From positions 1 through 64,000 of the forward strand of contig CP126207.1 in NCBI GenBank assembly GCA_030272155.1: a stretch of DNA of 64,000 nucleotides. The letters run 5' to 3'. Numbering within the stretch: position 1 is the first letter of the stretch; each line of letters starts with the position of its first letter. This document shows, piece after piece, positions 9,197 through 57,174 of this stretch. Made by a program: the position numbers and the translations under genes. This DNA comes from Tetradesmus obliquus. Its lineage: Eukaryota > Chlorophyta > Chlorophyceae > Sphaeropleales > Scenedesmaceae. The notes beneath the pieces are model-generated. The model ran no database searches. It was given only the letters and a program-made list of their open reading frames with translations, and was not told the DNA's origin.

Positions 9197-10306
9197 TTAT
9201 TCGGGCAGCATCTGCTCCGGGTCCACGTTGTCGTGGTCGTCCACCTGCGGCCCGCTGGGGCCGCCGCCAGCTGCGCGGCTCTTTGAGATACCGGACACTA
9301 TGTCATCTATCCGAAGCAGCATGTTGGCCGCCTCCACGCTCGTCTTGATGGTCTGCGTCTTCACCACCAGCGGCTCCCACACCCCAGCAGCACGCATGTC
9401 CACGATCTCCCCTGCACCAGCAGCAGCAGGTTGACGCAGTGGGTCGCAAACGGTTGGATGTGACGTGACCATGGCAGCGGCAGCTGCAGCAAAGTCACCT
9501 GTGTGGGATGCAATGACTGCTGAACTGTGCAACTTTCTGCACGCAGCTGCCAACCGCACCCTGGGATAATTGGACAACTGGCTGAAAACAAAGAGCAGTA
9601 ACGCGCAAGCATACATGCACACCAGCCCCACTCTAAGCACACCCCACTAGCCAGCACCAGCACACGCACCCATCTCTCCGCTGATGCGCAGGGGCCGGCG
9701 CTGCCTGCACGCTTTCTCAGCTTGAGATGCAACTGCATCGCAGCAATCCACGCAAGCACATGTGCACACCACCTGCAATCAACACCTTCCAACACACCAT
9801 GCACACTCACCTGTCTCTCCGTCAATGCCGGAGGGCGCAGGCACTGCCCGCGGCCTCCGCCTTGCAATCGGCTTGAAGCGCGCAAGTTACCCCAGACCCT
9901 AAGTCTAGAACCATAGAACCCAAGCCCAAACCCCAAACCCGATATCCCACCCGCACTCACCCGTCTCGCCGTTGATTCCGAAGGGGCAGGGGGCGCACAC
10001 AGTGCTCTCCACGTGCACCACCGCCATGCAAGCAAACATACACACGCACGCCACCCTCAACACACAAGGCACACTGCACACACAGGCACACTATGCACAC
10101 AGGCACCCTCACCCGTCTCGCCGTTGATGCCGAAGGGGCAAGCAGTGCCCACGGGCGTCTCCGCGTGCTTGGCGCGCAGCTTGGTGAGCGTGCGGATCAC
10201 GTTGGCGCCGCAGTTCTGAGCAAGTGTGCGAGGGATGACCTCAAGTGCCTGGCCGGCTGCCTTGTATGGGCCGGCTTCCACGCCCTCGATGGTGGCTGAG
10301 CGCTCT

Positions 10307-10340
<34 letters not shown>

Positions 10341-13300
10341 CATCATATAGGCATTCAGGGCACACACACAAGCAGCAGTCACCTTCTACACGCCCCTTGA
10401 TATGTATTTTGCTATTATATAGCTGATGTAACATGCTTTAACAGCCTGAGGTGTGTTCATGCGCGTTTTGAGGACCAGTCTACCAATCTGGTCTCGCACA
10501 AAAACAAGTGCTGCTGCTGGGATTTGACATGTGGTCAGTCACTTGCAAGCTGCTGTACAGCTGCTCCGCATGTATGTAACTGTTCAATGGTATCAAAGTC
10601 GTGTAGAAATTATAATAGATGCAGTAAGTGTCGAATGAAGCTTGCTGCGCCTATATTATTCTCTTAACCAAATGTTACAAAGTTTGAGACAAAAAAGTTG
10701 ACCAGCCCCCCAGACGCCCCCACTCCCTCCCCTGAAACACCTCAGATTCCCGTCAAAAAATGACAGTAGTTAATTGTTATAGTATATAACGCATCTTGAA
10801 GTTTCCAGTAGGAAAGGAATGCTGCTGCTGTCAGTACATGCAGTCCCCCCCCCCCCCTGAGCTGCCACCCGATAACCCAGCAAACGCCCAAGTATACACA
10901 GACACACACCCCACGCACCTGTGAGCGTCCTGCTAACAGCCATCTCCACAGCTCCTCCTCCAGGGACCAGGCGGCTATCCACCACGATATTTCTCGCCAC
11001 TCCCATGGCGTCCTGCAAGGCATCAACATGCACAAGCACAGCATAAGCAGCACCGTACAGGGAGTGCTTACGTGTGTGTACACACATGCGGTGTGCACAG
11101 CACTGGGCAGCAGTTCGAACACGTACACGAACAGCCTCAAGCTGCTGCCCCAACCTTTCCTGCAAGCTAGCAGCTGCACATAATCATTTGCAGGACTCCC
11201 GCAGGGCGCCTGAAGATGTGCATCCAAAAGCAGTAGAGCACTGCCGCTGCGAACCAGGCCGCAACTCACGTGCAGGTTGCGCTCCACCTCAATGAGCACG
11301 GCCTTGATCGGCATCCAAAGCAGCAAATGCCAATCAGTGCATGTAAAGCATTACATCTACGTCAGATAACAGTGACACAAAGCAGCGCCTCACGTGCAGG
11401 TTGCGCTCCACCTCGTTGAGCACGTCCTTGCTGGCGCCGCGCAGCACGATGGTGCACGCCTTGGGGTCCTTGCAGTCCACGATGAAGGTGAAGAACTCGT
11501 CGGCGATCTTGACCACCTCAAACAGGCCCGCACGCGTGCCGATGTCCGACTCACGCACCTGCAGATCACACCAGAACAAGGGAAGAAAGACAGTGATGCA
11601 GTCAGAGATAGCAGCTGCGCAGCAGTGCATTGATCGGGTGCATCAATATGGTGTGACGCCAAGAAAGGAGCAGCTGCTGGGTGAATCGCAAAGCACAGCA
11701 ATACTGCTGCCTGACAAATCTTTCTGCTGCTCTGGTTGACACTGCATGCACGTGTAGCCAAAACCAAATCTCGTCATCCTCTCTGCGGCCACCCCTGCAT
11801 ACCTCCTCTATTCTGTGGCAAATGGTGGCGCCTGTTGCGCGCGCGATGCGGTTGTTGTCGGTCTTGCGCAGGCGGCGGATGGCAGAAATGCCCGCCTGGC
11901 AGCAGCAGTGACAGCGCATGCGTATTAAAATGGTGACGTTGCTGGTTTGTTATGTGCTATGCAGCCGGTGGTATGGTGAAGCTGCCAGCTTGATCAAACC
12001 AAAGCACGCCTTCGAGAGGCAGCAGAAGGAGGACACGTCAGGTGGTGCAATGCTACGGCAAAGCCTGCCTTCCTGCGGCTGAAGGCTCCTGCAAGGCGCT
12101 ACACTGCACACATGCCCAGCCAGATTGTGATGAACCACTAGAGCAACATCCCATGGTCACGTCTACACAGCAGGAGCAGCAGCAGCAGCAGCAGCAGATG
12201 GCGCGACTCAGCCACCCCTGCACCTTGGTAAGGAAATGGGCCATGCACACATCCAGATACCAGAACCAGCCAGAACACCATCCCGGTGAGATACACACAA
12301 CCAGCAGCTTGCCGATACAACGATACAACCGCGTCCTCACCTTGGTGAGGAAGTGTGCCGCCAGGTCGCTGAGCCCCTTCTCAGTGACCACCAGGTCGGG
12401 CTTCAGCGCCACGATCTGCGCGCAGGCGCCAGCCACCCACTCCTCCTCAGCCTTGAGCAGCGCAGCCCTGCACACAACAAAAGGCAACAGGCAACAGCCA
12501 GTGAAACATCTGGTCAGGGAGGGTGAGGTACGGCCAGTGGAGTGCCGATCAGCCACCCACTCCTCCTCGGCCCAACGGTCCTCCTTCTAGAGCTCCACCG
12601 CTGTTTGCTGCTACCAAAGCACACATGCTGGCCATCTGTTACAGCTTTGCCACTCAAACCCTGAACCTCAAACCCCAATCCCCTACCCCTGCACCCCGCA
12701 ACGCACCAGTCCTCCTCCTTCATGAGCTCCACCGGGGTATGGCTCTCTCCCTTCTTGTATTGAACCAGGCTATTTATCAAACAGCCTGCTAGCCAAACGG
12801 TTTGATGTTGACAATAACGCACCAGTCCTCCTCCTTCATGAGCTCCACCGCGGTCTGGCTCTCTCCCTTCTTGTACTCCAGCGGGCAGTCCAGCAGCAGG
12901 ATGCGCGGGTTGGCGATGCGGCGGCGCATGCGGCCCGGCACCACCACGTCCTTGTTGAACATTACGCCGCGCAGCACCTGCGGCGTAGTGAAACAGTGCA
13001 GAGCAGTTTTGAAGGAGCAAGATGTTTGATGACTGATGTTGATTTGCAGCACGGCCACGTCCATATTGAACATGACGCCGCGCAGCACCTGCGAGTGCAG
13101 TGGCAGGGTTTAAAGACAGCAAGCGGGTACATATGTGGTGTGGCTGGTGGTGTGGCAGCGCATGCGGCCCGGCACAACCACGTCCTTGTTGAACATCACG
13201 CCGCGCAGCACCTGCGGTGTAGTGCAGAAACAGTGCAGATCAGTTATGGCGAGGCAAAATGTTTGATGAGAGATGTTGATTGCAGCACCGCCACGTCCAT

Positions 13301-15490
13301 GTTGAACATGACGCCGCGCAGCACCTGCGAGTGCAGTGGCAGGGTTTGAAGACAGCAAGAGGTTACAGATGTGGTGCGGCTGGTGGTGCAGCGGCGCACG
13401 CGGCCCGGCACCACCACGTCCTTGTTGAACATCACGCCACGCAGCACCTGGAAAAAGGAGGCAGCGAATGGCATAGCAGGCAAGGTCAAAATGCAGTGTG
13501 AAGAGCGTATTCAGTCGTGGCATCACCACGTCCCTGTTGAACACATCGCGCCGCGCAGCACCTGGCAACAGACAGGTGATTAGAAGACGGCAAGGAGGCA
13601 AGCAGTAAGTAGGACAGCATGCAAAGCGTAACAACTTACGCCTAGCGCAGAACAGGTGGGTCCCGCTGAAACATGGTCATTGCACAGCCCTAGCCCTGCC
13701 CCTGCTGCTGCTACCTCAAAGCCCATCAACAGCACACACGAGCCACGCATTCTGCAGTCTCGCTGGTGCCTCCAGGGATCCTCTCAATCAACCCCCTGTA
13801 CACCACACCACCGCTGATCCACATCCTGCAAGCATGCTACACGGACACGGCACAGCCCTGGCCCTGCAGCTGCCACTGCTGCACCCCAACTGCCCACCTT
13901 GCAGTCCTCAATGGTGCCTCCTGGGACCGTCTCGATCTTGGCGTAGTTCTTCACATCCACTGCTCATCCTGAGCCCATACGGCCAGCATGCCTAACACAA
14001 AGGCAATGCACAGCCCTGATCCTGACGCTGCTGCTACCAAACACAACAGAACACAATGCATCATCGCTGCTGTGCTCCGCTCACCTTGCAGTCTTCGATG
14101 GTGCCTCCTGGGATCTTCTCGATCTTGGCGTAATTCTTCACGTCCACCTCGCGCTGCCCGCCGCCCACGTCACGCGCCACCGTCTGCACCGCGTCCAGCG
14201 CCAGCTCCTGCAGCAACAGCAGCAGCAGCGGCAGCGGGGACAGGCAAGCATGCAGCGTTACACAAAGCCGTGAAATAAGAGCGTGACAGCAGGGTGTTGT
14301 TGAGGAACAGCAAGTTATGTGTGCTGCTCTAGTGAGTTAGTCAAGTGGCGCGCCACCATCTGCACTGCGTCCAGCGCCAGCTCCTGCAGCGACAGCAGCA
14401 GAACACGCGGCCAGTAACACCAGCACAGGGTTGATGGCTGGGAAAGACAAGCACAGGACTGCATTGATTCACAGCTACTGCTACGGCACCAGATGAGACG
14501 TGCTGGCTGAGCCAAGTGCGACAAGCCACGCGGCTTGCACTGCCCCTAGCACCAGCTCCTGCGGGTCAAGGGCAAACAGAAGCAACAGCACAGTGTTAGC
14601 GGCCAAGAACAACAACAACAATACGCACACGACTGCAGCAATGCACGGAGTTGCTACGGGAGCACACGACAAGTGATGGTGGAATCAAGTGCGACAAGCT
14701 ACGGTTTGCACTGCGCCCAGCGCCAGCTCCTCACCGCCACGAGGCAGTCGACTGCCACTGCCTCACATACACTCGCTGCTGCATGCACAGTGCCAGCCGC
14801 CTGCAGCCCAACCCATATGCCACACCTCTCCCTGCACTCACCGCCACGAGGCAGTCGACTGCCACTGCCTCACATACACAGTCGCTGCTGCATGCACACT
14901 GCCAGCTGCCTGCAGCGCAACCCTTCTGCCACCACCCTGCACTCACCGCCACGAGGCTGCCGAACGGCTGGTGTACTTGGTGCCAATGCAGCTGCATGCT
15001 GTGTTGAGCTAGTACCTCGCCTGCAGCGCACATGCTGCTGCACGGCACCCTTCCAGCTGCTTGCAGCCCCCACCACCCCTGTGCAGTGACTGCCGTACGG
15101 CTGCATGTTGCTGCTGAGCTGGCGCACATGCACTCGCTGCTGCGCCACAAGGTGCATGCTGCCTGCACAGCGCAGGCCACTCACCGCCATGACGCTTGCC
15201 GAAGCTGGAGGTGTACTTGGTGCCGCAGAGCAGCATGCTGTTCTGAAACAGACACTGGCATGCACCACACACACTGCTGCATGACACCCTGCCAGCTGCC
15301 TCACATGCACTCGCTGCTCCATCTTACGGTGCATGCTGCCTGCAGGCCCCACACCCATCCTGCCCTGCGCTCACCGCCATGAGGCTGCCGAAGCGTGAGG
15401 TGTACTTGGTGCCGATGCAGCTCTGCACCACCTGCAGCATGGCACTCCTGTCGTTGGTGTCTATGCTGAACGACATGGACTCAGCCACCT

Positions 15491-15521
<31 letters not shown>

Positions 15522-17314
15522 GGGCAGCAGCAGCAGCAGCAAGCAGCAGGCCTGAGTACCAATGTCACACGCATAGCATGAAAAAGCGCACCGTGCAGTG
15601 GCACTGCGGCTGCTGTCATCACCATGCTCACATCAAAGCCACACCACAAGCCCAAGTATAACTGTGACTGAGCACCTGCCCGCAGGAGCTCACGCATACC
15701 CAGCTAGTGACACTAAAGAGCAGAATGATGCAGGCAATTCCTCAAGCACAGCCGAAGCAGCGCAGCAATGCCAATGGCAGATGGAACGTCCTGAAGGTGC
15801 TGCTGCTGCCAGTGATCACGAACTACATGCAGCGCATGTCAACAAACTGTTGCTACTGCTCAACAAATATGTGCCCGCACCTTGATGGCGTCCTCCAGTG
15901 CCCTTGTGTAGCCGCGCACCAGCACCGTGGGGTGCATGTGGCGCTCCAGCAGCGGTTCAGCAGACTGCAGCAGGACAGCAGCAGCACGTGAACAAGCAGT
16001 TACGCCATAGCGCAGCAGCATGCTGATGGAAGATGCATGCATTGCAATGCACAAACACAGCAACAGCTGCAGGAAGCACACGTACACCTTGACAATCCAC
16101 ATGCACTCCGCAGCAATGTCTGACAGCTCCCTCTGAGAAACAGCAGCCGCGCAACACTTCACCCGCTGCGCACCTGCGCACGTGCGCAGATCCCCCGCCA
16201 GAATGATGGCTGACACACCCAAACACGCATGTGTTGACGCAGCACGCATAACAACAGCCAACACAGGCGACTGCCCACTGCATAATAAGCAGCGCAGCTC
16301 ACACCTGCAGCAGCTAACCCGCCAGGATGCTGGTGGTGTGTTGCATGGGCATAGCAGCAACAGCTGTTGAAGGACACACTTGAACACCAGCACGCATAAC
16401 AACAGCTGACAAAGGCCACTGCTCACTGCATCAAAAGCAGCGCCATGCACCTGCAGCAGCTCCCCCGCCAGGATGATGACGCTGGTGATGCCATCCCCCA
16501 CCTCCTCGGCACAAGCAAAGCAACAGCCGCAACATCCACACGCACACCTGTCCATCGACATGCACTTCATGATCACAGCTGCCGTTAGCCGCTGCAGATG
16601 GACATCAGGGCCATCTATTCTTACTGCGCACCTGCAGCAGCTCCCCGGCCAGAATGATGGCTGACGCACACAAACACGCATGTGTTGACGCAGCACGCAG
16701 AACAACAACCAACAAAGGCCACTGCTCACTGCATAAGCAGCAGCGCAGCTCACACCTGCAGCAGCTCCCCTGCCAGGATGCTGACGCTGGTCGTGTGTTG
16801 CGTGGGCAGCACAGCAACAGCTGCTGAAGCACACACTCAAAACCAGCACGCATAACAACAGCTGACAAAAGCCACTGCTCACTGCCTAAAAGCAGCGCCA
16901 CGCACCTGCAGCAGCTCCCTCGCCAGCAAGATGACGTGCACATCCAGCCATGCACCAAACAATACGCACACCCACAGTTCACGCTTGTCTCAGAACAACT
17001 ACAGGTATGTGTCAAACAAACATGCACCTGCAGCAGCTCCCCCGCCAGGATGACGACACTGGTGGTGCCATGGCCCACCGCATCGTCACAAACAAGGCAA
17101 CAGCCGCAACATCCACACGCACACCTGTCCATCAACATCCACTTCATAATCAACACTACTGTTTGCCGCTGCAGATGGATAACAGGGCCATAAATTCTTA
17201 CTGCGCACCTGCAGCAGCTCCCCCGCCAGGATGATGACGCTTGTGGTGCCGTCGCCCACCTCCTCGTCCTGCGTGCGGCTCAGCTGGATCATGGACTGTG
17301 GCAGACAACCAAAG

Positions 17315-17348
<34 letters not shown>

Positions 17349-17440
17349 CCGTTGATATGTGGGTGGCAACAGCTTTACACCAGGAATGCTTTGAACGTGG
17401 CATGGGTAACTGGACTGCAGGCAGGAGGGCATTCGAAATA

Positions 17441-17501
<61 letters not shown>

Positions 17502-18683
17502 TGACGAGAATGTGAGCAAGTAGGGCTTTGGGTGGGACATGTTCCGCGGCTGTGACCAGCAGTGGGTGCTTCACGTAGCCAGTTGCAGCTGCTGGGCTGC
17601 ACAGCCACCAAGCACCGTCGAAACACACCGATGCTGCTGCAAGCAATGTGCTGCTGCTGCTTCTGCTGCTGCTGCTGGTGGTGGTGGTGGTGCCGCAGCA
17701 GTGCCACCAGCAGCACCAGCGCCACAGCTGCTGTCCCCGACCATGCTGCCCTCGAGCATTGCTGCAGCCCTGCAGCTCCACAGGTGCTGCCCCTGGCAAC
17801 GACGGAGACAGGCAACATTGCGCAGCGCTGCGCACCTTGGCTGCCGGGTGTGACACATCGATCTCACGAAGGATGGCATGGCCGTCATTTGTGAGCACGA
17901 TGCCTGCAGCATCAGCAGCAGCAGCACATGACAGCAGCAGCGCCAGCGCAGTGCAGCACAGCAGCAGCAGGTGGTAAGGGGAAAGGTTGGGCTATGTGCA
18001 CGTATATGTGTGTGCAGTTTGAAAATGGCACACGAGCCAACGTGCCTGCTGGTCATATATGAGCAAGCATGCTTAGCATGGCAGTGGCACCTCCCAACAC
18101 GCAGCAGCTGCGATCAGATGCGTGCTGACGTGCTCTCTTCACAGTCGACTGACACACATGTGCAAAATCAACGAAATAGTCAGTTCAAAGTGACTGTTTG
18201 TGCTGATGCGGCGGCAGTCAACCAGACTGCACTGTATGCTGGAAGCACCACTGCGGCCCCACATGGGCTGCTGCTGCTGTGCATCCTCAATCCCAAGATA
18301 CTGCCATGCACAGCGCTTGCTCACACTCAAATGTGCAGATGTTAAGTACAAATCAAGATCACGCCTGCTGTGCTCAATCCCTGCTGATTGTAGAATAGTC
18401 ATCGCCGCTGCTGCTGTGTGCTACACCTGCGCACCTCCATTTGGGTCAAGCAGCATCTTCAACATAGACCGGGGCCCAAGCGTAGTTCTGATGATGTCTG
18501 ACACTGCCTGTAGCATGGAATGCAACGTTAGGTATAAACAAAGCATGCATGCCTCGCCCAGTCGCTTTGCTTTGGGCGCCTGCTGCAGCTGCACACCTTT
18601 GCAGCTGCGATGTTGCCCACTTGGGCCTTACGGCCCTGCTCCCGTTTCGTGTTTGCATTTAGCACTGTTACTGGAACCTGCAT
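9197..18683 (-). CDS. CCT3: T-complex protein 1 subunit gamma (CCT3), complete, 14 exons
   Basis: Subunit of the cytosolic TRiC/CCT chaperonin, which folds actin, tubulin and other proteins using ATP. Exons in transcript order: 18683-18597, 18507-18435, 17903-17836, 17295-17209, 15964-15881, 15488-15375, 14207-14085, 12977-12823, 12467-12341, 11895-11803, 11558-11394, 11012-10919, 10304-10113, 9411-9197. They join in frame to 558 residues, close to the ~545 usual for this subunit. Visible group II chaperonin motifs are [20 protein letters not shown], the ATPase signature [28 protein letters not shown] and NGETGEIVDM, with gamma-type KYTSRFGS and [10 protein letters not shown]. The ATG at 18683 gives an N-terminus ([19 protein letters not shown]) matching the family. 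Introns are unusually rich in diverged copies of exon edges (separate entries). It is transcribed divergently from the J-protein gene. Confidence 0.96.
9658..10000 (-). repeat. Three decayed copies of the CCT3 exon 13 donor edge
   Basis: At about 9658-9690, 9808-9850 and 9953-10000 the exon 13 ending (FGINGETG codons followed by a GT donor) recurs with increasing divergence. The functional edge is at 10113. All three lie downstream in transcription, inside the last intron. Each carries the coding end plus the splice donor but no exon start, so they cannot be whole duplicated exons. Confidence 0.85.
11268..11306 (-). repeat. Decayed copy of the CCT3 exon 11 donor edge
   Basis: The sequence repeats the end of exon 11 (NEVERNLH codons and the gtgag-type donor) about 120 bp downstream of the real edge at 11394. 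Substitutions change the coding sense. It lies inside intron 11. Confidence 0.8.
12218..12250 (-). repeat. Decayed copy of the CCT3 exon 9 donor edge
   Basis: The end of exon 9 (AHFLTK codons plus donor) is repeated about 120 bp downstream of its functional edge at 12341, with the donor changed from gtgag to a weaker form. Confidence 0.7.
12547..12760 (-). repeat. Two decayed copies of the CCT3 exon 8 donor edge
   Basis: At 12705-12760 the exon 8 ending (KKGES...ELMKEEDW codons with donor) is repeated almost intact. A poorer match lies at 12547-12600. The functional edge is 12823. Both copies are on the downstream side. Confidence 0.75.
13049..13562 (-). repeat. Five decayed copies of the CCT3 exon 8 acceptor edge
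   Basis: The 5' edge of exon 8 (CAG acceptor followed by [10 protein letters not shown] codons) recurs at about 13049-13090, 13170-13212, 13283-13328, 13410-13450 and 13519-13562. The real acceptor is at 12978. Spacing is about 110-130 bp. Some copies keep the residues almost unchanged and others alter them (FNMDV, FNRDV). All lie upstream in transcription, within intron 7, and all carry the acceptor side only. Confidence 0.9.
13755..13960 (-). repeat. Two decayed copies of the CCT3 exon 7 donor edge
   Basis: At 13898-13957 the end of exon 7 ([18 protein letters not shown] region) is repeated with changes, and at 13757-13790 a shorter version is present. The functional edge is 14085. The copies lie in intron 7 on the downstream side of exon 7. 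Confidence 0.78.
14343..14737 (-). repeat. Three decayed copies of the CCT3 exon 7 acceptor edge
   Basis: The exon 7 start (CTGCAG acceptor then ELALDAVQ codons) is repeated at about 14343-14393, 14523-14563 and 14700-14737. The functional acceptor is at 14208. All copies are upstream of the exon in transcript order. Confidence 0.8.
14728..15235 (-). repeat. Decayed copies of the CCT3 exon 6 donor edge
   Basis: The exon 6 end ([13 protein letters not shown] codons and gtgag donor) recurs at about 15178-15235 and 14940-14985, with shorter remnants near 14837-14872, 14728-14760 and possibly 15088-15110. The functional edge is 15375. Divergence rises away from the exon. Confidence 0.8.
16176..17080 (-). 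repeat. Seven decayed copies of the CCT3 exon 4 donor edge
   Basis: The last third to half of exon 4 ([17 protein letters not shown] codons plus GT donor) recurs at about 17026-17080, 16903-16935, 16754-16795, 16628-16665, 16449-16505, 16300-16335 and 16176-16215. The functional edge is 17209. The ATPase signature is altered in the fuller copies (GHGTT, GDGIT). Part of the intron is copied too: about 16540-16680 matches 17110-17240. All lie downstream in transcription and none has an acceptor. Confidence 0.9.
17442..17502. repeat. (CAG)n microsatellite in CCT3 intron 3
   Basis: About twenty uninterrupted CAG triplets, which read as CTG on the transcribed strand of CCT3. A shorter CAG run at 17312-17346 sits just upstream of the exon 4 acceptor. 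Open frames through it are homopolymer artefacts. Confidence 0.95.
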
Positions 18684-20667: not shown

Positions 20668-20711
<44 letters not shown>

Positions 20712-23700: not shown

Positions 23701-26700
23701 AGCATGTGACGCGATACACAGCAGCAGCAGCAGTAGCAGCAGCTGCTGCACCAGCAATCAATGTCGACAAGTGAGGCTTGCAGCTAATGCTGCGGCACAG
23801 CAGCAGCAGTGGTGGTAGGGCTGCGGGGCGGTGCTGGCCTGAGCTCACGTAGCTGTCCAGCAGCAGCGCTCCTACGCCACAGCATGTGTTTGATGCTTTG
23901 GTTGGTTGGTGGTTGGTGAATGCCGCCCTTGCCTCCATTGCGCAGTACGTGCATGTGCAGATGATGATGCTGCCTGGAGGCTGGTGGAACCTGGGCGGCT
24001 GGCTGCTGGCTGCTGCCGCTAGCATGTGGCTGGCTTGGTTGACGCTCCCGTTGCTGCCTCTGCTGCCGTTGTTTTATTAGACAGAATATGCTGATGCCAC
24101 GCGGCTGATATGACCTGGGCGGCTGGCTGCTGCTGGTTGCTGCCATCAGCTTGAGCCCGGCTTGTTTGACGCTGCGTTTGCTGCCTCTGCTTTCTTTGTG
24201 CAACTTTGCAGATGCTGCTGCTGCCTGGAGGCTTGTGGAACCTGGGCGGTTGGCTGCTGGCTGCTGCTGCCAGCATGCGGCTGCTACCGGGCATCCGGCG
24301 CATCACCTGGCCCACTAGCACCCTCGGCATCGTGCTGCTGTCCAAAGCAGCTGTGCTAGGCTGCAGCTGGGCAGGCTGGAAAGTGTTCAGCAGCAGCGAT
24401 CTGGCAGACCCGCTGTCGCGCGTGTCGTGGTGGTGGTACCTGCTGCTGCTGGCTCTGCATGTGTTCACGGGGCTGATGAAGACGGCAGAGAAGATTCGGG
24501 AGGAGGCAGAGCAGCAGGGCGGCAGCTTTGGGCGCAGCCAGTCAGCAGGTGAGGCGAGGTGGCTGCTGTGGTCAGTGTGTGATTTCAATTTTCATTGTGC
24601 GTATTTGTGGCTGTTCAGGGATGTGTGTATGTCCAGCTGGGGCTGGGATTTTACAGGGGTGGCAGCTGGCCTGCTGCGATTGCAGTGCTATGTTTTGTTT
24701 GGCAGCAGATCGTCATTTTGTGGCTGACTGTGATTGCCACCGCAGATGACGAGCCTTTCTACGGGGGTGCCAGCGACATCGCGTACCAGAAGTTTGTGAT
24801 GGGCTTCGGGCCCGTGGCTGTGCCTGAGGGCTGCGAGGTGGCGGAGGTGAAGGTGGCGCTGCAGGCGCGGGACTACTACCAGGTGGGGTGCGGTATGCTG
24901 CGGTCCTGCAAGCTGTCCTGCAAGCTGTCCTGCACGCAATGTGTGCATGTGACGCGTCTGCTGTGTGCTGCTGGTGCTGCTGCAGGTGATAAGCTTTGAC
25001 AACAGTGAGGAACATGCCCCAAGTTGCTTCCAGGCGCCAGGCTCTCCTGCAGGCTGTGCTGCAAGCGGTTCTGCAAGCGATGCATGCAGAGTCATACTTA
25101 TGTTGTACGCTGCTGGTGCTGCTGCAGGTGATGGGCTTCGCGTTACGCCAGGCGTGCACGCCTGAGTCTCTGCGTGGTTCAAAGCTCCCCGGCAAGCAAT
25201 CCTGCAAGCTGTCTTGCAGGCACTTACGCGTCATGCCGCTGCGTTGTCACGCGCCTGCAGGTGATGGGCTTTGCCAGCCGCCAGGAGTGCACGCCCGAGT
25301 CGCTGCGCGCCGCTCTCGTGCAAGCCGTCCTGCAGGCAAATGTAACGCGTGTATCTACTCAACCACGTTGTGCTGCCCCTCTCCTGCAGGTGATGGGCTT
25401 TGCCAGCCGCCAGGAGTGCACGCCCGAGTCGCTGCGCGCCGCGCGCAAGGCCAAGGCGCTGGCGGTGCACCCAGACAAGGTCGGGCACGACCACCCGGGG
25501 GCCAACCAGGCGGCGGGCCGCGTCAACAAGGTGGGAAAGCAGGCCTGTGGCCACAGCTTGCTGTGGTTGCTGCTTGTTTTGCTCTGTGTGTTGCGCTATG
25601 TGAAGGTGCTGGCCCGCGTGGTCTGTGTATGTATGACGAGGCATCTTGAGCATATTTGTTGTGACGTGCCTGCAGGGGGATGAGACGCTGAGCGGCGAGT
25701 AGTCGCGCCGTGCCTGCAACTCGCCCGATTGCGTCCAATGCTCTGCAAGTCAATTCACATCTGGACATACTGTCAGTTATGTACACACTGTCAGTCATGT
25801 ACACCTTATGTTACGCGTGTGCCTGCAGGCCTTTGAGACACTGAGCAGCAAGGAGTCCCGCCTACAGCCCACCCTGCGTCTTTTGCGCTGTGTTGTTCCG
25901 CCCAACCTGAACACATACAGGCGTTTTAGCTACTGAGCAGCGAGGCGTCCCGCCGCGCCTGTCACTTTGTGCCAAGTATCTGCATCTGATGTCTGCACAC
26001 CCTGTTGCTCGACACATTCCAATGTCTGCAGGCGTATGAGACGCTGAGCAGTGAGGAGTTGCGCCGCGCCTACGACAGGCTGCTGGACTGCCACAGCAGG
26101 CCCAGCGCAGCAGCAGGGCCAGGCGGCCGGCGCGGCGCAGCAGCAGCAGCGGCAGCAGCAGCAGCGGGCTTCAGCCCCAAGGACGCAGCACCGCAGCAGC
26201 TCAAGGAGTCGCTGTACAATGTGGAGCGCTCTGGGGCGTACATGTGCGACATGGGCTGCCCCAACGGCGACCACTCGCACACCGTGTACATCCTGCCGCA
26301 GTGAGTGCCGGGGGTTGGTTGAGCTGGGTTTGTTTTGGTTTGTAAAGCTTTGGCGTATTGCGTTGGCACAGCACTCTGCGGCTGCAGGCAATGCTGCACG
26401 TTTACTCTAGCAACGGTTTGCTTGGCTAGCAGTGGGCAGTCGCATTGCTCGTGTCAGTATCAGCTCAAGGAGTTGCTGCACAATGTGGAGCGCTCGGGGG
26501 CGTACATGTGCGACATGGGCTGCCCCACCGGCGACCACTCGCACACCGTGTACATCCTGCCGCAGTGAGTGCTGCTTACTGGGGCTGCAAAAGCGAATTT
26601 TATGTTTTCGTTCGGCTGCTTACACTGACACTTAGCTAACTACAAGGCTGCAGCACATTGTGAACCGGTGTGGACTCTCAGTGACCCTGCAATCCCTCCC

Positions 26701-28247
26701 CCACATCAGCACCCTCAGGGCGCCTTTTGGCGTGCGCTGGTGCCGTGAGTGCCAGGATTGAAATAACACGCGGGAGGCGGGGGAGGTGTGGGGGCACTGG
26801 AGCCGCGCCGCTAATCACAATATGTTTGCGCACACCTGCCCCTCTCACTGCTGTGCTGGCTGCTGAAGGTGGCGCTCCATCAGTCGCTGCAAGGCTGCTG
26901 CATTTCCATCTCAGCTCGAGACACTGACAATGCACGTGCCTGCCTCTCTCGCCGCTGCTGCCTGCAGGGCGCCGTTTGGTGTGCGCTGGTGCCGGGAGTG
27001 CGAGGACTGGCACAACACGCGCGAGTCTGGCGAGGTGTGGGCGCACTACAGCCCAGGGCTGGGCGGCGTGCGCATGCTAGGCCGGGTGCGGCTGCTGCTG
27101 GCGCCTAGCCCACAGTCACCCATTTTCGACATCACAGACCTCTTCAAGTGCGGGGTGAGTGGTCTCAAAACACACACAGCAACGTATGCTCGGTGGTGCT
27201 GTGGCGTGCCGGGGGCTGTTGTGTGGTGCGGCAGCACACGTTGCGTGCAGAGCAATGAATGCTGCCTCATAGTTTGCTGTGGGGCGCCTTGTGGGCGCAC
27301 TACAGCCCCGTGCTGGGCGGCGTGCGCATGCTGGGCCGCGTGCGGCTGCTGCTGGCGCGCAGCCCCCAGTCCCCCATCTTCGACATCACAGACCTCTTCA
27401 AGTGCGGGGTGAGTGGTCTCAAAACACTTACAGCAACGTGTGCTCGGTGGTGCTGTGGCGTGCTGGGGGCTGTTGTGTGAAGTGGCAGCACACGTTGCGT
27501 GCGGAGCAATGATTGCTGCCTCAAAGTTTGCTGTGGGGCGCCTTGTGGGCGCACTGGAGCTCTGGGCTGGGCGGTGTACGCATGCTAGGCCGTGTGCTGC
27601 TGGCGCGCAGCCCCCAGTCCCCCATCTTCGACATCACAGACGTCTTCATATGCGGGGTGAGTGGTTTCACACGCACACGTGCACAGCAACGCCCTGGTTT
27701 GTGTGCTGTGACGCGCTAGGGCTGCTTGCTCATCTGCTATGCAGGGCAAGCAGGTCAGCTCAGCGGACGTGTTGGCCACTTGCAGGAAAGAGCTTCACAG
27801 CCCTCCAAGGTTTCACTGAACCGCTGCTTGCTCATTTCCTGTGCATGCAGGGGAAGCTGGTCAGTTCCGATGGCATGCGTACACGTCTCCACCACTTGCA
27901 GGAACGCACCTACACAGCACTGCCGGGTTCTCATGCGCTTTCTACTTGCTCATCTGCCGTGCAGGGCAAGCTGGTCAGCTCCGCAGGCATGGGCAACACG
28001 CATCTTACGGTGCACGATCAGCCCACCGTGCTTGTGCTGGCCACAGTGTTCATCTGGTGCTGGTTGCCTGCTGTGCATGTAGGGCCGGCTGTCCACGCCA
28101 GCCGACATGTGCAACGCGCACTTCAACCCGCTGGCAGACGTCATGGCGGCACCCAGGAGCGCGCGGCGCGGCGGCGGCGGCGGTTACAGCGGTGCGGATG
28201 CAGGCACCTCTCGGCGCAGCAAGAAGAAGCAGGGCAGGCGGCGGTAG
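19679..28247 (+). CDS. Membrane J-domain protein with Jiv90-like C-terminus (DNAJC14 type), preceded in frame by a PIH1-type CS-like domain
   Basis: Twelve exons join in frame to 970 codons: 19679-19751, 20164-20542, 20716-21476, 21909-22003, 22695-22985, 23595-23672, 24212-24548, 24746-24882, 25390-25530, 26032-26300, 26968-27154, 28083-28247. Order of parts: CS-like strand region (QKLRLSVQLPG, RYTLLLPLDV, FKKKKQTLTATFTVL) resembling PIH1 C-termini; helical WLRRGLEAARSGN segment; long Gln/Ser tract; several membrane helices; J-domain with HPDK; Ala-rich linker; Cys-rich Jiv90-like part (CDMGC, RWCRECEDWH, PIFDITDLFKCG); basic tail KKKQGRRR. DNAJC14 relatives are ER-membrane Hsp70 co-chaperones. 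The true start is unknown. It may lie upstream, or at ATG 20367 if the CS part belongs to a separate gene. Confidence 0.8.
21576..22141 (+). repeat. Donor-edge copies of two J-protein exons
   Basis: At 21576-21647 the end of the exon closing at 21476 (LLNAWSK codons plus donor) is repeated. At 22096-22141 the end of the transmembrane exon closing at 22003 (VAAHFAVVWLWRT codons plus donor) is repeated. Both copies lie in the intron immediately downstream of their parent exon. Confidence 0.82.
22460..22566 (+). repeat. Acceptor-edge copy of the J-protein exon starting at 22695
   Basis: CAG followed by GWTKPLEVAARIRRTGGDTF codons is about 90 percent identical to the functional exon start 235 bp downstream. 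The copy loses coherence after ~107 bp, whereas the second occurrence continues through a transmembrane segment to a donor. Confidence 0.88.
23099..23206 (+). repeat. Donor-edge copy of the J-protein exon ending at 22985
   Basis: Repeats the codons for GGHSVVGWA...ALVWRPWHSVQ and a gtgag donor about 220 bp downstream of the real edge. The copied donor is closer to consensus (gtgagg) than the functional one (gtgggg). Confidence 0.88.
23955..24150 (+). repeat. Two acceptor-edge copies of the J-protein exon starting at 24212
   Basis: At 23955-24040 and about 24086-24150 the start of the exon (CAG, then LLPGGLWNLGGWLLAAAAS codons) is repeated, more decayed in the second. Only the occurrence at 24212 continues into a long exon ending in a good donor. 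Confidence 0.85.
25129..25317 (+). repeat. Two acceptor-edge copies of the J-domain exon
   Basis: CTGCAG plus VMGFASRQECTPESLR codons occurs at 25129-25170 (decayed) and 25261-25317 (near perfect) before the functional exon at 25390. Only the last copy continues to the HPDK motif. The near-perfect copy carries a full acceptor, so it is a realistic cryptic splice site. Confidence 0.9.
25679..25960 (+). repeat. Three acceptor-edge copies of the post-J-domain exon
   Basis: At about 25679-25710, 25829-25860 and 25921-25960 the sequence repeats CAG plus the YETLSSEELRRA codon region of the exon starting at 26032. The copies have frame-breaking changes, and two have weaker acceptors. Confidence 0.82.
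26458..26805 (+). repeat. Donor-edge copy and acceptor-edge copy flanking the Jiv90 intron
   Basis: 26458-26566 repeats the end of the exon closing at 26300 (LKESLYNVERSGAYMCDMGC region plus gtgag donor). 26714-26805 repeats the start of the next exon at 26968 (CAG, then PFGVRWCRECEDW region, here with a stop). The order inside the intron is therefore donor copy first and acceptor copy second, as the boundary-duplication rule predicts. Confidence 0.88.
27284..27656 (+). repeat. Two donor-edge copies of the Jiv90 exon ending at 27154
   Basis: Codons for WAHYSPGLGGVRMLGRVRLL and SPIFDITDLFKCG plus gtgagtgg donor are repeated at 27284-27409 and 27530-27656, with about 245-250 bp spacing. The copies keep FDITD and a perfect donor but lack an acceptor. 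Confidence 0.9.
27744..27995 (+). repeat. Three acceptor-edge copies of the last J-protein exon
   Basis: CAG followed by GKLVSSAGM-like codons recurs at 27744-27775, 27850-27880 and 27963-27995 before the functional last exon at 28083 (GRLSTPADM). Only the final occurrence continues to the basic tail and stop. Confidence 0.82.
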
Positions 28248-28389
28248 CAGCAGCAACAGCATGAGCACAGCGGGATTCACCCCTCCTGCTGCTGACGCTG
28301 GCTAGCAGCTGCATGGTGCGTCTTCCCTGCTGCTGTCAGGCAAGCCCGGCCTGGCAGTGTGCAACAGGTCAGCAGCTGGTGGCAGTATG

Positions 28390-29345
28390 CAGGTGCATTG
28401 GGCAGCTGCGCAAATGCAGGGACGTAGGGCCCTTGCACAGATGCAGGCAGCTCGCGGCGCAGCAGGAAGAAGCAAGGCAGGCGGCGCTGGCAGGAGCAGC
28501 AGCAGCAGCATGAGCGTGGCACAGCGTGGTGCGGCCTGTCAGCTGCTGCCGCTGAGCAGCAGCCGCACTGCGCCACTGCCTCCAGATCAGCCTGGCATTG
28601 TCCACGTCAGCTGGCGGCAGTACTCAGGTGCATTGGGCAGTGCTCAGGTGCATTGGGCAGTACTCAGGTGCAGTGGGCAGTGCTCAGGTGCATTGGGCAG
28701 TACTCAGGTGCATTGGGCAGTACTCAGGTGCATTGGGCAGTACTCAGGTGCAGTGGGCAGTACTCAGGTGCATTGGGCAGTGCTCAGGTGCATTGGGCAG
28801 TACTCAGGTGCATTGGGCAGTACTCAGGTGCAGTGGGCAGTACTCAGGTGCATTGGGCAGCTGTGCAGATGCAGGGACGCAGGGCGCGCGCAGAGATGCA
28901 GGCGGCTCTCGGCGCAGCAGGAAGAAGCAGGGCAGGCGGCGGTAGCAGCAGTAGCAGCATGAGCGCAACTTGCTGCGTCCCTTCTGCTGCCGCCGCTGGC
29001 GAGTAGCTGCGTGGAGCCATTGCTTCACATCAGCCTGGCATTGTCTGCGTCAGCTGGTGGCAGTACGCAGGTGCATTAAGGCGTAGCGGGAAGAATCAAG
29101 CCAGGCAGTAGCAGCAGCAGCAGCGCTGAGTGCAGGAGCAGTTGCATTTGTTCCTGCCGCTGTTGTACCTGGTGCCGGCTAGCAGCCGGATGGCAGTCCT
29201 GCTGTGCTGGTCAGCAGCTGCTGGCAGTCAGAGGGTCGCTTAGGTAGCTGTGCAGCTGCAGGAACGCAGGGCCAAAGCAGTAATGCATGCGGTTCACGGC
29301 ACAGCAGGAAGAAGCAGAGCACGCGGAGATAGCAGTAGCAGATCA
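28390..29345 (+). repeat. Decayed copies of the J-protein stop-codon edge downstream of the gene
   Basis: The end of the last exon (RRSKKKQGRRR plus the following CAG-rich 3' UTR) is repeated at about 28430-28510, 28885-28960, 29075-29130 and 29285-29345, progressively diverged. These copies are not associated with a splice site, so edge duplication is not restricted to splice junctions. Confidence 0.85.
28621..28860. repeat. 20-bp minisatellite, 12 units
   Basis: Exactly twelve 20-bp units of tactcaggtgcattgggcag fill 240 bp, differing only at two positions (tactc/tgctc and catt/cagt). A related single copy at 28388-28407 suggests the unit arose from sequence beside the copied last exon. 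There are no unique spacers, so it is not a CRISPR array. Confidence 0.97.
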
Positions 29346-43415: not shown

Positions 43416-46400
43416 ATGCAGCACCAGGCAGCAGCGGCAGCAGCAGATGCTCCGGCAGCCTTTGCTGACCTGACCCCTGCAGGACATGTGCAGCAGCTGC
43501 TGGGGCTGGCTTTCCCGCCAGTGCAGCCGCTGATTGGCAGTGAGGATGGCAGCTTTGCACAGGAGACGATTACTACACGCCTGCCAGCGATAATGGACAC
43601 AGTGCTGGCTGATCTGAAAGCAGAGGTGAGCAGAGCAGCATGACAGCAGCATACTCATGGCATGTTTGTTGGAGCAGTGCCTGTGTCGTTGATTCTCTTT
43701 ATGTGGCAGCTGTGAGGTAGGAGACCTTCAGCACACGCCTGCCCGCCATCATGCAGACGGGTGGGCGATTTGACAGCAGAGGTGAGCAGCGTGGCACACT
43801 AAAAACACAGTATTAGGGTGTCCTGTGTGCAAGTACCTGCGGCGTTATTCTCTGTTTGTGGCAAGTTTGAGGCAGGAGACAATCACAACGCGCCTGCCCG
43901 CCATCATGGATACAGTGCTGGCTGATGCAACAGCTTAGGTGGGCAGCGTAGCATGGTAACAACATACGCTTCGCATGTTGTGCTTCGCTTGTCCCCTGGT
44001 GCCTGTGGCATTGTATTCTATTTGCAGCGCTGCCGTGTAATGTGCTGCTCCTGCCGCTGATGAACCTGCCGCAGGGGGCCAGCAGCCATCCGCAGCAGCA
44101 GGCGCTGCAGCAGCAGCTGGCAGCAGCGGCTGCAGGCGTGAGGCAGATGCAGGCGGAGATGCCGGGTGAGCCGTCTGCTGGGGCCCTTGCCTCTGTAGAA
44201 AGGTTTTCCAACATGTTCTAAATGTAACAGCAGCAGCAGCTGCAGGCGTGAGGGAGATGCCGGGTGAGCAGTTCGAGCAGTTCGAGCAGTTCAGGTTCCC
44301 AGCTTCTCTCTTGTTCAAGCAAAGGCGTTCATTGCAAACTCAGCAAGGATTGGCAGGCGGGCTACCGGTGGCGATGCTGCTCAGCCACAGAGTACCGAAA
44401 GTGGGCTGCTCTGAGTGCAGGCAGTAGCAGCAGCAGCAGCACTTGCAGGGTGCTGCCGCTGTCAAATGTGCTGGATATCTGACAACCGCTGAAGCTGCTG
44501 CGGCTGCCTCCTACCAAATTGTTGTGGTTGACGGCCGGTGACCGTGCATGCAGTCCACAGCAGACATAATGGCACTGCTTGCACTGCTTTGCCATGCCCT
44601 TGCTGCTGTTTGCCGCTGCTGCATGTGCTGCTTTCTGGTGCAATCCATGGGCCGCTGCAGCCGCTGCAAGTGCCGCCGGCCTGCTGCCTGGCCATCCACT
44701 GCGCTCTGTCACAACCGCTGCTGCTGCTGCCATCCGCTGCTGCTGCTTTTTGCAGTTGATGGTGCTCTGCAGCCGCTGCAAGTGCCTGCCGACCTCCCAG
44801 CGGACCACCCGCTGACCTCAATCCTCCTGCCACCAACGCTGATGTTTGCTGCCGCTGCTGCTGCTGCTGCCTGCTTCACCTGCAATTCCTGCTGCACTTG
44901 ACGGTTCTCTGCAGCCGCTGCAAGTGCCTGCCAATCTCCCAGCGGGGCACCCGTTGCACTCGTCATCCCTACCACCAACGCTGCTGTTTGCTGCCGCTGC
45001 TGCTGCTGCTGCTGCTGCCTGCTGTTTCTACATTGTTTGCCGCAGTTGATGGTGCTCTGCAGCCGCTGCAAGTGCCTAGCAACCTGCCAGCTGGCCACCC
45101 ACTGGCCTCAATCATCCCCACCACCAATGCAGCCGTGGCTGCATGGGCGGTACACTCCAAGCAGCGTGCCAGCTGGCTGCAGCTGCCGTGGCTGACTGTG
45201 GAGTGCTACCTGTACGTACGCTTGGCCTCCATCATTGCAAGTCAGGTAAGCAACTAAGTTGTTACTTCCATTGTTATGTTTGAGTTGAGTTTTGTTGTTG
45301 ATATCTCAGTCAGCTGGCTGCAGCTGCCGTGGCTGACAGTGGAGTGCTACTTATATGTACGCCTGGCAGCCATCATTGCCAGCCAGGTATGTGACCTAGC
45401 TGTTTCAGATGCGTGGTTTGACCAACTTTATGGTTCTATTGTTTTATTGCTGCCAGCCTTGCGGCGTGGCTGACTGTGGAGTGCTACCCGTACGGGCAAA
45501 TGGCGGCTATCATCGCCAGCCAAGTCACTGTTGCCGTCATTTCCATTTTCTTTTCGAGTCTCCAATGCTTTTGTTGCAGCCAGCTGCCAGAAATGCATCG
45601 GCCTGTCCACATCATGACAGCACACCGCTTTGCTGCCTCGACTTCCGTGTTCCCCGAGGCAGCGTGCAGCCACTGCTGTCGCGATTGCCACCACCCACTT
45701 AGATGCGTTGCATGCAGTACGCCACTGACACTCCCGCCTTATTGCCTCATCACTCCCATTTGATGCCTTGCTACCCTGTAGCCGCTGCTGGTGGGCTCTT
45801 CATATGACCCCTTCTTCCGCCAAAAGAGTGTGGCCCTCACCAAGGGCATGGCAGCAGCAGGCGACATTGCAGCAGCAGCGCAGCAGCTGCTGCAGCAGCA
45901 GCAGGACGCAGTGGCTGCTGCCGGCTGTGGTGCCACACCGCAGATGGGGGCACACTTCAGTGAGGAAGCCAAGGCCAGGTTCTACCAGCTGCTGCAGGTG
46001 CGGTTGAGGGTCTGTATGCTCAAACTGTTACTTCCCGCAGGGCATGATAGGCACTGCTGCAGCTGCTGCTGATCGAGGGCCTCCCCAGTTTCAGCATTAT
46101 GAATTCGTGGGGTTCTAGCAGCTGCTGCAAGCGGATGTTGCAGCTGGGTTGAGGCCACATTTGCCTTTGCTGTGTTGGAGACCCGTTGATCGCTGAAGCC
46201 ACCACGCAGCAACAGTGCAGACACACCCAATCAGTCAAGCAGGCAGTTCGAGGCGTGCGCGTCTCGTGCGCCTGCTGTTGTCCCTGCTTTTTGTTGCTGC
46301 TTGGGGGACAGCTGGCATCCATCCTTGTGCTGTTGCTGCCGCATGTCATGCTGCATGACTCATGCACTGCAGTACTCGCTGTGGGGTAAGAAGCCGACCC

Positions 46401-46596
46401 GTCCAAGCCGCAGCTGCTGCTGCTGCTGCTGCTCTGGCTTTTCCTTGCTTCTCACGGTTTGCCTCCTGATGTGCTCTTGGCTTTTTTTGACTGCAGTACT
46501 CTCTGTGGGGTAACAAGAATGATCTGTCCATGCTGGTGGATGTGGCGCACATGAACAGCTCAGCAATGGCACACTTTCAACTGTGTGCGTTTGTGC

Positions 46597-46631
<35 letters not shown>

Positions 46632-47327
46632 ATTGCCTGCAGCACTCGCTGTGGGGCAACAAGACCGACCTGTCCATGCTGGTGGACGTGGCTCACATGG
46701 ACAGCTCAGCAGCAGCGGCAGCAGCAGCAGTCGGCAGTGGCAGCAGCAGCAGCAACATCATCGTGAACGAGACAGATGAGCTGTGGGACTACCTGAAGGC
46801 ACAGGCAGCAGCAGCTGCTGCTGCTGCTGGCCAGGGTGCAGCCGGATCTGAGGGGCTGCAAAGTGCGCTGCCACGCATCGACATCATCCTTGACAATGCG
46901 GGTGAGCTGGAGTGCTGTGCAGTGTGCAAAGTGCTGGTAGGGTTCAGGTTCATTGCCTGGTGCAGCCTGGCGGCAACTGTGGTGCTACACGGAAATGCCA
47001 TACCTTGGTTTATGTTGCGTCGCCTTGGCATCAGAAACGCGACTCACAAGGGCTAAGTACAATGCAAGCACTCAATGAACCCTCCAAGAGCTGCACCCAC
47101 CCTGGTGAGCCGCGGCACCTGCCATAAACATGATTTATGTCTATCATAACGTTCCTGCTGCTGCTGCTTCACTGCCTTGCAGGCTTGGAGCTGTTCACGG
47201 ACTTAGTCCTGGCAGATTACCTCGTGGCAACTGGCTTGGCAGGGACAGTGGTTCTGCACGGGAAAGCCCTGCCCTGGTTCGTGTCTGACACATTGTCACA
47301 CGACCTGCACCATATCATCGAGGCCGT

Positions 47328-47359
<32 letters not shown>

Positions 47360-47826
47360 GCAGTGAGGCCAATGCAGCGGCGCTGGCGGCTGCTGGCAAG
47401 CGCTGGGCGGGTCACTTGGAGGCTGGGCGCTGGCGCTACGCTGCTGACAAGTTCTGGACGACGCCTCACCCTTTCTGGTGGATGCAGGAGGTGAGCTGCC
47501 GGTCTGGCTGTTACGTTAACTTCATTACTTGTTGTGTTACTCTTGGGAATGTATGAATGTATGCTGTGCTGTTGTTTGCATCCAGGGTTTGCGTGAATGC
47601 TGCACTGCCCATGAATCCTGGACCACGCCACACCCATCCCGGTGAATGCAGGAAAGGAGCTGCAGGATCCGCTGCTGCAGAATTGCTGTGCTGCTCATTT
47701 GCATATCGCGACACGCTGCCCACAACATTCGGCACTCCACCTGCAGCTGTATGCCATAAGGATGTCCTCTGCTCCCACCGTCAGGTACTTGGGGCATGTG
47801 CACCTCTGTGCATCGACCTGCACTGC

Positions 47827-47867
<41 letters not shown>

Positions 47868-48944: not shown

Positions 48945-48954
48945 CCTGAGAATG

Positions 48955-49160
48955 TGGGAAGCACACCAGCCTGGAATAAGTACTGGCAGGTGAATGTCAA
49001 GTTTGGGGTGCTACAGTTTGCGCAGCTGTGGAAGAGCAGCAGCATGCTATAATTGTGTAGAGCTACTGTGGATCCTGTCAGCAGCAGAAGCTGGACCTCC
49101 CTTTGCATGTCTACTGCATATTCGGCATGCTGCAGTTGACGCAGCTTGGGAGCCAGTAGG
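48955..49160 (+). repeat. Two post-stop copies of the ARMT1-like last-exon edge
   Basis: Sequence resembling [14 protein letters not shown] codons recurs at about 48980-49030 and 49107-49158, the latter ending in GSQ and the same stop. They lie downstream of the gene and have no coding role. Confidence 0.82.
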
Positions 49161-51179: not shown

Positions 51180-51211
<32 letters not shown>

Positions 51212-52671: not shown

Positions 52672-52722
<51 letters not shown>

Positions 52723-54911: not shown

Positions 54912-54973
<62 letters not shown>

Positions 54974-56313: not shown

Positions 56314-56360
56314 ATGGGGGCCACCTCACCAGAACTGCCGCAGCAGCATGCTGCAGGCCA

Positions 56361-56391
<31 letters not shown>

Positions 56392-57174
56392 GCTAGCAGC
56401 AGTAGCAGCAGCGCCAGCGCCAGCATTGCAGCTGACGGCTGTGCCTGGAGCCTCAACGTAGGCAGCGCTGTGGCCATTGTGTTTGTGAACAAGGTGCTGA
56501 TGAGCAGCAAGAGCGGCTACGGCTTCTCTTTTGGTGAGCAACTGCAGCATACATGCCTGCAGCTTTGTGGCCCAGGCTTGGCCCTCTATTGGTGAGCAAT
56601 TGATTATTAACCAAATAATTTGTAATAATCAATTATGCAGCATTAGTGCCACCCCTGTGCATGCAGCTTGCCAGGGTGCAAGCATAGTGATGCTGGCAGC
56701 ACACGCATAGGCCTGACAAAGCAACAGCCCGGCAGTGGCAGCAGCAGCACCTCTTGAACCACAGCCACTTTGCGGGCTCGCGCTGGCGAGTTTTTCCCTG
56801 ACCAGCAGTTGCTTATGTGGCCATTGGGTTGCGGCCCAGCAGTCTGCAGGACGTGTGCTGCTGCTGCTGTTGCCGCTGCTCATTGTGTCCTGCAACCGTC
56901 GCCCGGCGTGCCATCCTTCTTCTGGCAGCATCGTCACTGCTGCTGCTGCTGCTCCTGCTGCTGTTTCTGTCATCTGCTGCAGCCGTCACGCTGATTGCCA
57001 TCCACTTTCTGACAGCATCATGAATGCTGCTGCTGCTGCTGCTGCTGCTGTTGTCGTCGTTCTGCTCTGCAGCTGTGACGCTGAGTGCCATCCACTTCCT
57101 GACAGCAGCAGGCTGCGTCATGGCAGCGCAGGCAGCGGGGCTGGCAGAAAAGGCCAAGCGCATGCCCTGGAAAG
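56314..57174 (+). pseudogene. First two exons of a nucleotide-sugar/triose-phosphate transporter family gene; remainder absent
   Basis: Exon 1 (56314-56533) encodes a poly-Ser leader and the first transmembrane helix typical of the family (WSLNVGSAVAIVFVNKVLMS, then GYGFSF). Exon 2 (57073-57174) joins in phase 1 to give FSFAVTLSAIHFLTAAG and a basic loop ending MPWK. These proteins normally have about ten helices and 300-400 residues. I found no third exon in the next 1.1 kb before the retroelement region, so the gene is either truncated or its remaining exons lie beyond the inserted element, outside the window. The parts present carry no stop or frameshift. The substrate cannot be assigned. 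Confidence 0.7.
56570..57022 (+). repeat. Edge copies in the transporter intron
   Basis: A donor-edge remnant of exon 1 lies at about 56570-56594 (ending ttggtgagc). Acceptor-edge copies of exon 2 lie at about 56890-56935 (poor) and 56983-57022 (CAG then VTLIAIHFLTAS codons), before the functional exon at 57073. Confidence 0.75.

Follow-up and report, generated by a model that had tools for sequence, protein, structure and literature searches.

Arrays of copied exon edges in the introns of Tetradesmus obliquus chaperonin genes: probable duplication across splice borders, possibly followed by exchange with the functional exons

The window analyzed here comprises the first 64 kb of contig 17 of the Tetradesmus obliquus genome (104.66 Mb, 17 contigs) and contains the CCT3 chaperonin gene on the minus strand (9200–18683), together with genes labeled as a J-protein, an ARMT1-like protein and an acyltransferase. 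The 14 exons of CCT3 encode the T. obliquus protein P0004 exactly, and the same exons were obtained from P0005 and P0007, proteins about 87% identical whose names are apparently transcript-derived. Inspection of the introns revealed copies of the ends of exons 4, 6, 7, 8, 11 and 13 and of the starts of exons 7 and 8, a single copy of an internal fragment of exon 9 and, downstream of exon 14, a copy of its coding end (Table 1). A first-pass annotation of this DNA had listed exons 4, 6, 7, 8, 9, 11 and 13 as bearing such copies, and our own search placed copies at exactly those exons. It had also proposed a rule for the locus by which exon starts are copied, with their AG, only upstream of the exon and exon ends, with their GT, only downstream.

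Eight CCT genes, one per contig, were modeled with a purpose-written spliced protein-to-DNA aligner (102 exons and 94 introns, CCT3 being the gene of the window). The references were P0004 for CCT3, P0121 for CCT1, P0241 for CCT5 (after removal of a 15-residue insertion) and, for CCT4, CCT2, CCT8, CCT7 and CCT6, animal chains from the PDB; in the genes aligned to animal chains the terminal exons are possibly incomplete. A doubtful final exon fragment was removed from CCT4 ahead of counting, and three organelle-type chaperonin loci (contigs 4, 8 and 11), whose draft models were poor, were left out of the counts. Each exon was searched singly against its own locus with the exons masked (word size 8, E 0.01, low complexity masked), and the coordinates of the CCT3 copies were converted from the reverse-complemented locus.

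The search gave 158 same-strand matches and one on the opposite strand. Adjacent introns hold 152 of the 158, namely 78 exon ends lying downstream of their exon, 68 exon starts lying upstream and six internal matches (three upstream and three downstream), and at the sensitivity used no edge match was found on the wrong side in these introns. The proposed side rule thus holds in the adjacent introns of the eight genes. The six non-adjacent matches consist of two of end type downstream of the last modeled exon, three internal ones and one of start type lying downstream (23 nt, in a non-adjacent intron of CCT5). The copied fragments are 18–159 nt long. Of the 68 start copies, 58 retain the AG in register; of the 78 end copies, 71 retain the GT and two others have GC. 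Copies accompany 41 exon starts and 34 exon ends, out of 94 each, and edge copies per gene range from 37 (CCT1) down to 0 (CCT6). Beyond the window, copies are present in six of the seven further CCT genes and absent from CCT6; the observation is therefore confirmed and extends past the window. The CCT6 locus (L040) shows no local direct repeat in 9.5 kb despite its 12 modeled introns.

Chance matches are few: reversed exons gave 4 matches against 158, and a comparison of each locus with its own reverse gave none in six loci. A further control, CCT exons against the introns of other CCT genes, was spoilt by paralogy (113 matches); in a later run 86 cross-gene matches fell inside known copies and 19 outside, all of them ≤30 nt, no genome-wide search for the units being part of this count. 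From position 9300 on, the window contains 76 near direct pairs, no far direct pair and one far inverted pair.

The members of each array are regularly spaced. Successive members lie within 80–300 bp of each other in 149 of 152 cases (one below, at 69 bp, and two above), with quartiles of 114, 125 and 152 bp. Introns with more copies are longer (rho 0.76, 94 introns), the median being 306 bp without copies, 411.5 bp with one or two and 803 bp with at least three; the 27 introns of this last class hold 23.5 of the 48.7 kb of intron. The median intron measures 243 bp in CCT6, which has no copies, and 751 bp in CCT1. In five genes, local direct repeats make up 45% of the intron sequence (34.6 kb) and 9% of the flanks (15.5 kb); at five arbitrary 8-kb places elsewhere they take up between 0 and 46% of the bases. 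The regular duplicated units, the growth of introns by duplication and the arrays of decoy AG and GT sites described in the first-pass annotation are all supported by these values, whereas the graded divergence that it reported was not recovered, distant copies being no more diverged than near ones (20 arrays, rho -0.03, P 0.77). Near direct pairs with an offset below 78 bp are absent from the twelve chaperonin stretches (L039–L050), and a lower size limit of the duplicating process is possible; the window has shorter units, in a 20-bp array.

The same annotation attributed the arrays to duplication across exon/intron borders, and this part fits the spacing, the intron growth and the decoy sites. 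The side rule, however, is no special property. Duplication of a unit made of an intron part and an exon start yields two exon starts, of which just the second continues into the body of the exon, and donors mirror this; as long as the protein is preserved, the spare must remain on the intron side, and one-sidedness is forced by border-spanning duplication plus purifying selection. Nor is a preference for borders evident. Full-unit pairs, in which exon and intron parts repeat at one offset (identity ≥80%, length ≥0.75 of the unit), number 15 within five genes, two of them overlapping and two others outside genes being excluded; the border is spanned by 8 of the 15, where uniform placement expects a fraction of 0.32 (present introns) to 0.60 (introns capped at 300 bp). 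For many other pairs, divergence of the intron side hides whether the whole unit was repeated. An apparent preference in the repeat families (59 at borders, 3 in introns only, 5 in flanks) was rejected as biased, since old intron-only duplications are hard to detect once intron sides have diverged so far.

A closer look at the differences between copies and functional exons revealed a divergence of coding type, which the first-pass annotation had missed and which is new here. Differences from the functional exon number 127, 126 and 488 at codon positions 1, 2 and 3 (0.047, 0.046 and 0.181), and the third-position ratio for all copies has a bootstrap range over arrays of 3.04–4.97. The long copies (55 copies in 30 arrays), measured in a fixed span of 42 nt, give 30/25/165, a ratio of 6.0 (95% 4.3–8.8), and 4.0 (2.65–6.85) when compared with one another. 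By our reasoning a neutral copy beside a silently changing exon gives a ratio of at most about 2. The result is carried mostly by CCT1, CCT4, CCT5 and CCT8. Three other causes of the excess were considered. CpG hypermutability was discarded, as the excess persists outside CpG (0.031/0.038/0.122, five genes). Alignment trimming is opposed by the ratio of the long copies, yet the answer shifts with the span that is measured. Serial snapshots of the exon within one lineage are opposed by incompatible sites and by the lack of a gradient, the test of private changes being ambiguous.

Exon and intron sides of the copies have also diverged to very different extents. In five genes the exon sides (40 nt) are 87–89% identical to the exon and to one another, and the intron sides 52–59%, a level above the 34–45% found for other introns of the same genes. 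Among 235 CCT pairs, 55 match over 30 exon nt with no more than a single difference; the intron side of these 55 falls below 0.65 in 34 pairs and reaches 0.85 or more in only three, the homology of the diverged side being unproven pair by pair. Copies near the exon are no more similar to it than distant ones (20 arrays), and divergence between copies is 0.111 for neighbors and 0.107 for distant members. Finally, the GC content at third positions is higher at copied edges (1267/1476, 0.858) than at uncopied ones (1148/1458, 0.787; P 4.6e-7), in the same direction in 7 of 7 genes, which is the expectation under GC-biased conversion. Taken together, these signs tend to favor conversion or unequal exchange rather than plain decay, short of proof.

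The explanation that we put forward, with a probability of roughly 0.48, is therefore duplication across the borders followed by exchange with the functional edges, by gene conversion or between alleles. Short duplications, with an array spacing mostly of 80–300 bp, would arise in the gene regions of this genome, and those lying over an acceptor or a donor would leave the intron with a spare edge and the accompanying AG or GT. Repetition of such events would produce the longer introns and the decoy arrays that are observed. Later, the intron sides of the units would diverge freely, while the exon-derived parts would swap sequence with the functional edges by gene conversion or unequal exchange, and would so be kept exon-like, with high third-position GC and with differences that fall mainly on synonymous sites. 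Given how large the third-position excess is, some of the divergence may have been gained while the copies served as functional edges, for example those of other alleles.

Several results weigh against this explanation. When all 136 copies are measured in the 42-nt span, which then extends past the ends of short copies, the ratio drops to 2.44 (2.01–3.01), and to 2.0 (1.62–2.86) between copies. CCT3 (2.0) and CCT2 (2.2) are not clearly above the neutral bound of about 2, and the differences in CCT7 are few (4/2/6); CCT3, CCT2 and the 136-copy setting are explicable without any exchange step. Changes private to a copy, counted per array after omitting the copy with most private third-position changes, are 20/23/30 (P 0.10). 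A crude phase test found periodicity (P<0.05) in 2 of 68 window pairs, none of them in CCT3, and in 0 of 19 pairs from random loci; the test was applied to whole repeat pairs, in which intron parts and indels dilute the periodicity. Site pairs are no less compatible when farther apart (25 of 36 incompatible, P 0.56), a result that is uninformative as a test of recombination, and the GC difference could alternatively reflect where duplications occur or are detected. Exchange within a chromosome cannot, by our reasoning, give a ratio above 2, so that diverged alleles, or something unrecognized, are needed; exchange among diverged alleles would be our best guess. The J-protein gene offered a candidate for a clean conversion tract, a copy identical to the exon over 53 nt, but on its intron side only 22 of 40 nt match, no closer than random places (mean 0.49, 95th percentile 0.575). 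The candidate was dropped and the odds of exchange were lowered for this reason, as the copy may equally be read as a young copy of the edge alone.

Plain tandem duplication with neutral decay and no exchange, the third-position excess then coming from silent evolution of the exon plus measurement bias, is rather unlikely. It shares the geometry that accounts for the side rule, the low ratios of CCT3, CCT2 and the 136-copy setting and the near-even private changes come close to what it would give, and frame-breaking indels show that the copies are decaying. It is opposed by the ratio of the long copies, on which trimming should have no effect, and by the ratio of 4.0 between these copies. Copy-copy differences in full-unit pairs argue in the same direction: they number 11/296, 11/294 and 42/295 at positions 1, 2 and 3, that is, 22/590 at the first two against 230/1747 in the intron, although one CCT4 array contributes heavily to these sums (five genes). 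The absence of a divergence gradient with distance is a further point against decay alone.

It is improbable that the copies are real alternative or cassette exons, translated and under selection. Such exons would show the coding-type divergence, and five deposited T. obliquus proteins do contain in-frame repeats of exon edges (P0001, +27 residues; P0002, +18; P0003, +18; P0123, +9; P0241, +15), with no substitution relative to the gene models apart from the insertions. The inserted peptide was located in intron copies for P0001 (first 18 residues tested), P0002 (17 of 18 residues) and P0123, and for P0003 and P0241 the likeness to an exon edge was read from the sequences. The splice dinucleotides that an intact exon needs at its inner end are, however, present at about random frequency: AG near 38 of 78 end copies (0.50 at random intron points) and GT near 28 of 68 start copies (0.32 at random exon points), both splice partners being found in 15 of 78 and 13 of 68, respectively. 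Moreover, the copies of five genes carry 21 indels, all of 1–2 nt and frame-breaking, and 3 stops in 2126 codons. Most copies are therefore not intact exons, although a subset could still be. Clean forms are deposited as well (P0004, P0121 and P0122), and the insertion is missing from P0005 and P0126, which come from relatives. The insertions may be gene-prediction errors or minor isoforms.

Very improbable, in our estimate, is copying of edges alone, by which short templated insertions would bring an exon edge and its splice site into the nearby intron without the neighboring intron sequence. The intron sides of many pairs are indeed near the level of unrelated sequence, and in rice non-tandem insertions are reported to draw on sequence no more than 200 bp away from a break (PMC7407515). 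The regular spacing, a mean intron-side identity above that of other introns and the existence of full-unit pairs speak against it, and by itself it leaves the codon pattern unexplained. That the copies mark the birth of introns, by tandem duplication of an exonic AGGT or by insertion of an introner-like element, is hardly credible: intron gain by tandem duplication is established (PMC3443670), but the AGGT route puts the start of the downstream exon at the 5' side of the intron and the end of the upstream exon at its 3' side, whereas here every copy adjoins its own exon and bears its own splice site, with no wrong-side match in adjacent introns at the sensitivity used, and no far direct pair was found within the window.

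Duplication followed by exchange can be carried one step further, to a view that we consider quite doubtful. An exon edge would then be an array of one working copy and several spliced-out spares recombining with one another and with other alleles; the intron would serve as a living store of exon ends that were functional until recently, with indirect coding constraint acting on the spares.

Similar copies could be seen in other genes of the window. The J-protein name comes from the first-pass label and an HPDK motif rather than from a family search. The side rule was found to apply to one of its exons, with two start copies, both upstream and both with AG, and to two ARMT1-like exons, with two start copies upstream and one end copy downstream. 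The ARMT1-like exon also has CAG-rich matches, which were left uncounted as simple repeat. For the acyltransferase, the printed sequence shows, on inspection by eye, an upstream look-alike of one exon start. A Pfam scan of 30 stop-free frames of the window returned ARMT1-like matches in two, one of these below cut-off, weak sub-cut-off matches to serine dehydratase and acyltransferase in one, and no match in 27.

Table 1. Functional exons and copied exon edges in the window (1-based positions).
Feature	Position	Strand	Splice site	Basis or identity
CCT3 exon 4, functional, source of the seven-copy end array	17209..17295	-		spliced alignment with P0004, P0005, P0007
CCT3 exon 4 end, seven downstream copies, intron 4	16186..17087	-	GT in 6/7	
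CCT3 exon 6 end, downstream copy	15185..15225	-	GT present	
CCT3 exon 6 end, second downstream copy	14947..14993	-	GT present	
CCT3 exon 7 start, upstream copy	14698..14729	-	AG present	
CCT3 exon 7 start, second upstream copy	14349..14383	-	AG present	
CCT3 exon 7 end, downstream copy	13898..13960	-	GT present	
CCT3 exon 7 end, second downstream copy	13753..13789	-	GT lost	
CCT3 exon 8 start, five upstream copies, including a ~236-bp duplicated block	13049..13561	-	AG in 5/5	
CCT3 exon 8, functional	12823..12977	-		spliced alignment
CCT3 exon 8 end, downstream copy	12707..12759	-	GT present	
CCT3 exon 8 end, second, weaker downstream copy	12579..12607	-	GT lost	
CCT3 exon 11 end, downstream copy	11270..11306	-	GT present	
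CCT3 exon 13 end, downstream copy	9961..10016	-	GT present	
J-protein exon, functional, bounded by CTGCAG and GTGGG	25390..25530	+		sequence
J-protein exon start, upstream copy	25261..25313	+	AG present	identical over 53 nt
J-protein exon start, second upstream copy	25128..25174	+	AG present	83%
ARMT1-like exon (PF01937)	46643..46901	+		
ARMT1-like exon start, upstream copy	46498..46565	+	AG present	88%
ARMT1-like exon start, second upstream copy	46374..46408	+	AG present	86%
End of ARMT1-like exon 47183-47490, downstream copy	47618..47653	+	GT lost	83%

Repeats of other kinds are present in the window as well. Positions 1–8935 consist of CCCTAAA telomere repeats and then about 36 units of a satellite, each about 180 bp long and containing 11-bp subrepeats (ATGCGGTGAAG). 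About 12 units of 20 bp, 94% matching, occupy positions 28616–28860 within a larger direct-repeat region (28197–29351), and runs of CAG/CTG, very abundant from 9300 to 64000, confound repeat searches. Outside the window, the draft alignment of the chaperonin locus on contig 11 (L050) absorbed repeated peptides (SELVPAFKDTL, SLRAPARIIAENA), and this organelle-type gene likewise seems to carry edge copies. The CCT5 proteins P0277 and P0332 of relatives both depart from the CCT5 sequence directly after the exon end VEQYAMRAFA, which is copied in T. obliquus; from this point of departure, relatives may perhaps carry similar arrays.

The arrays bear on the open question of how introns lengthen in genomes without many dispersed elements. 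The mean intron of T. obliquus is reported as 462 bp, against 230–302 bp in the four other algae tabulated with it (PMC5966456). The arrays also raise the puzzle of how a spliceosome passes over several near-perfect decoys, and gene annotation may be misled by them. Should exchange with the working exon be confirmed, introns would influence how their own exons evolve. Arrays of exon edges in introns are undescribed in the titles and abstract openings of the best-ranked open-licence papers.

Genes and their linked pseudogenes can evolve in concert by gene conversion, the non-functional copies staying similar and their GC content being raised; here the copies are fragments within the introns of the same gene, and exchange with them is inferred. 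In tandem exon duplication, with mutually exclusive exons (PMC9013439), exon sequence is likewise repeated in an intron; the T. obliquus copies differ in being edges only, with one splice site each and no complete exon. The short local duplications of rice, credited to asymmetric nicks and end joining (Vaughn and Bennetzen 2014, via PMC7407515), resemble these units in being local, direct, within 10–1000 bp and free of any element, and the account given there describes neither splice-border arrays nor later concerted evolution. Tandem genomic duplication is, finally, the source of new introns in the AGGT model (PMC3443670, PMC4974935), in which a tandem duplication inside a gene supplies, as here, both the splice sites and the sequence that is spliced out. 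In that model, as these sources present it, the intron is born from exon; in T. obliquus it is existing introns that seemingly grow, through copies that span an existing border and accumulate as multi-copy arrays.

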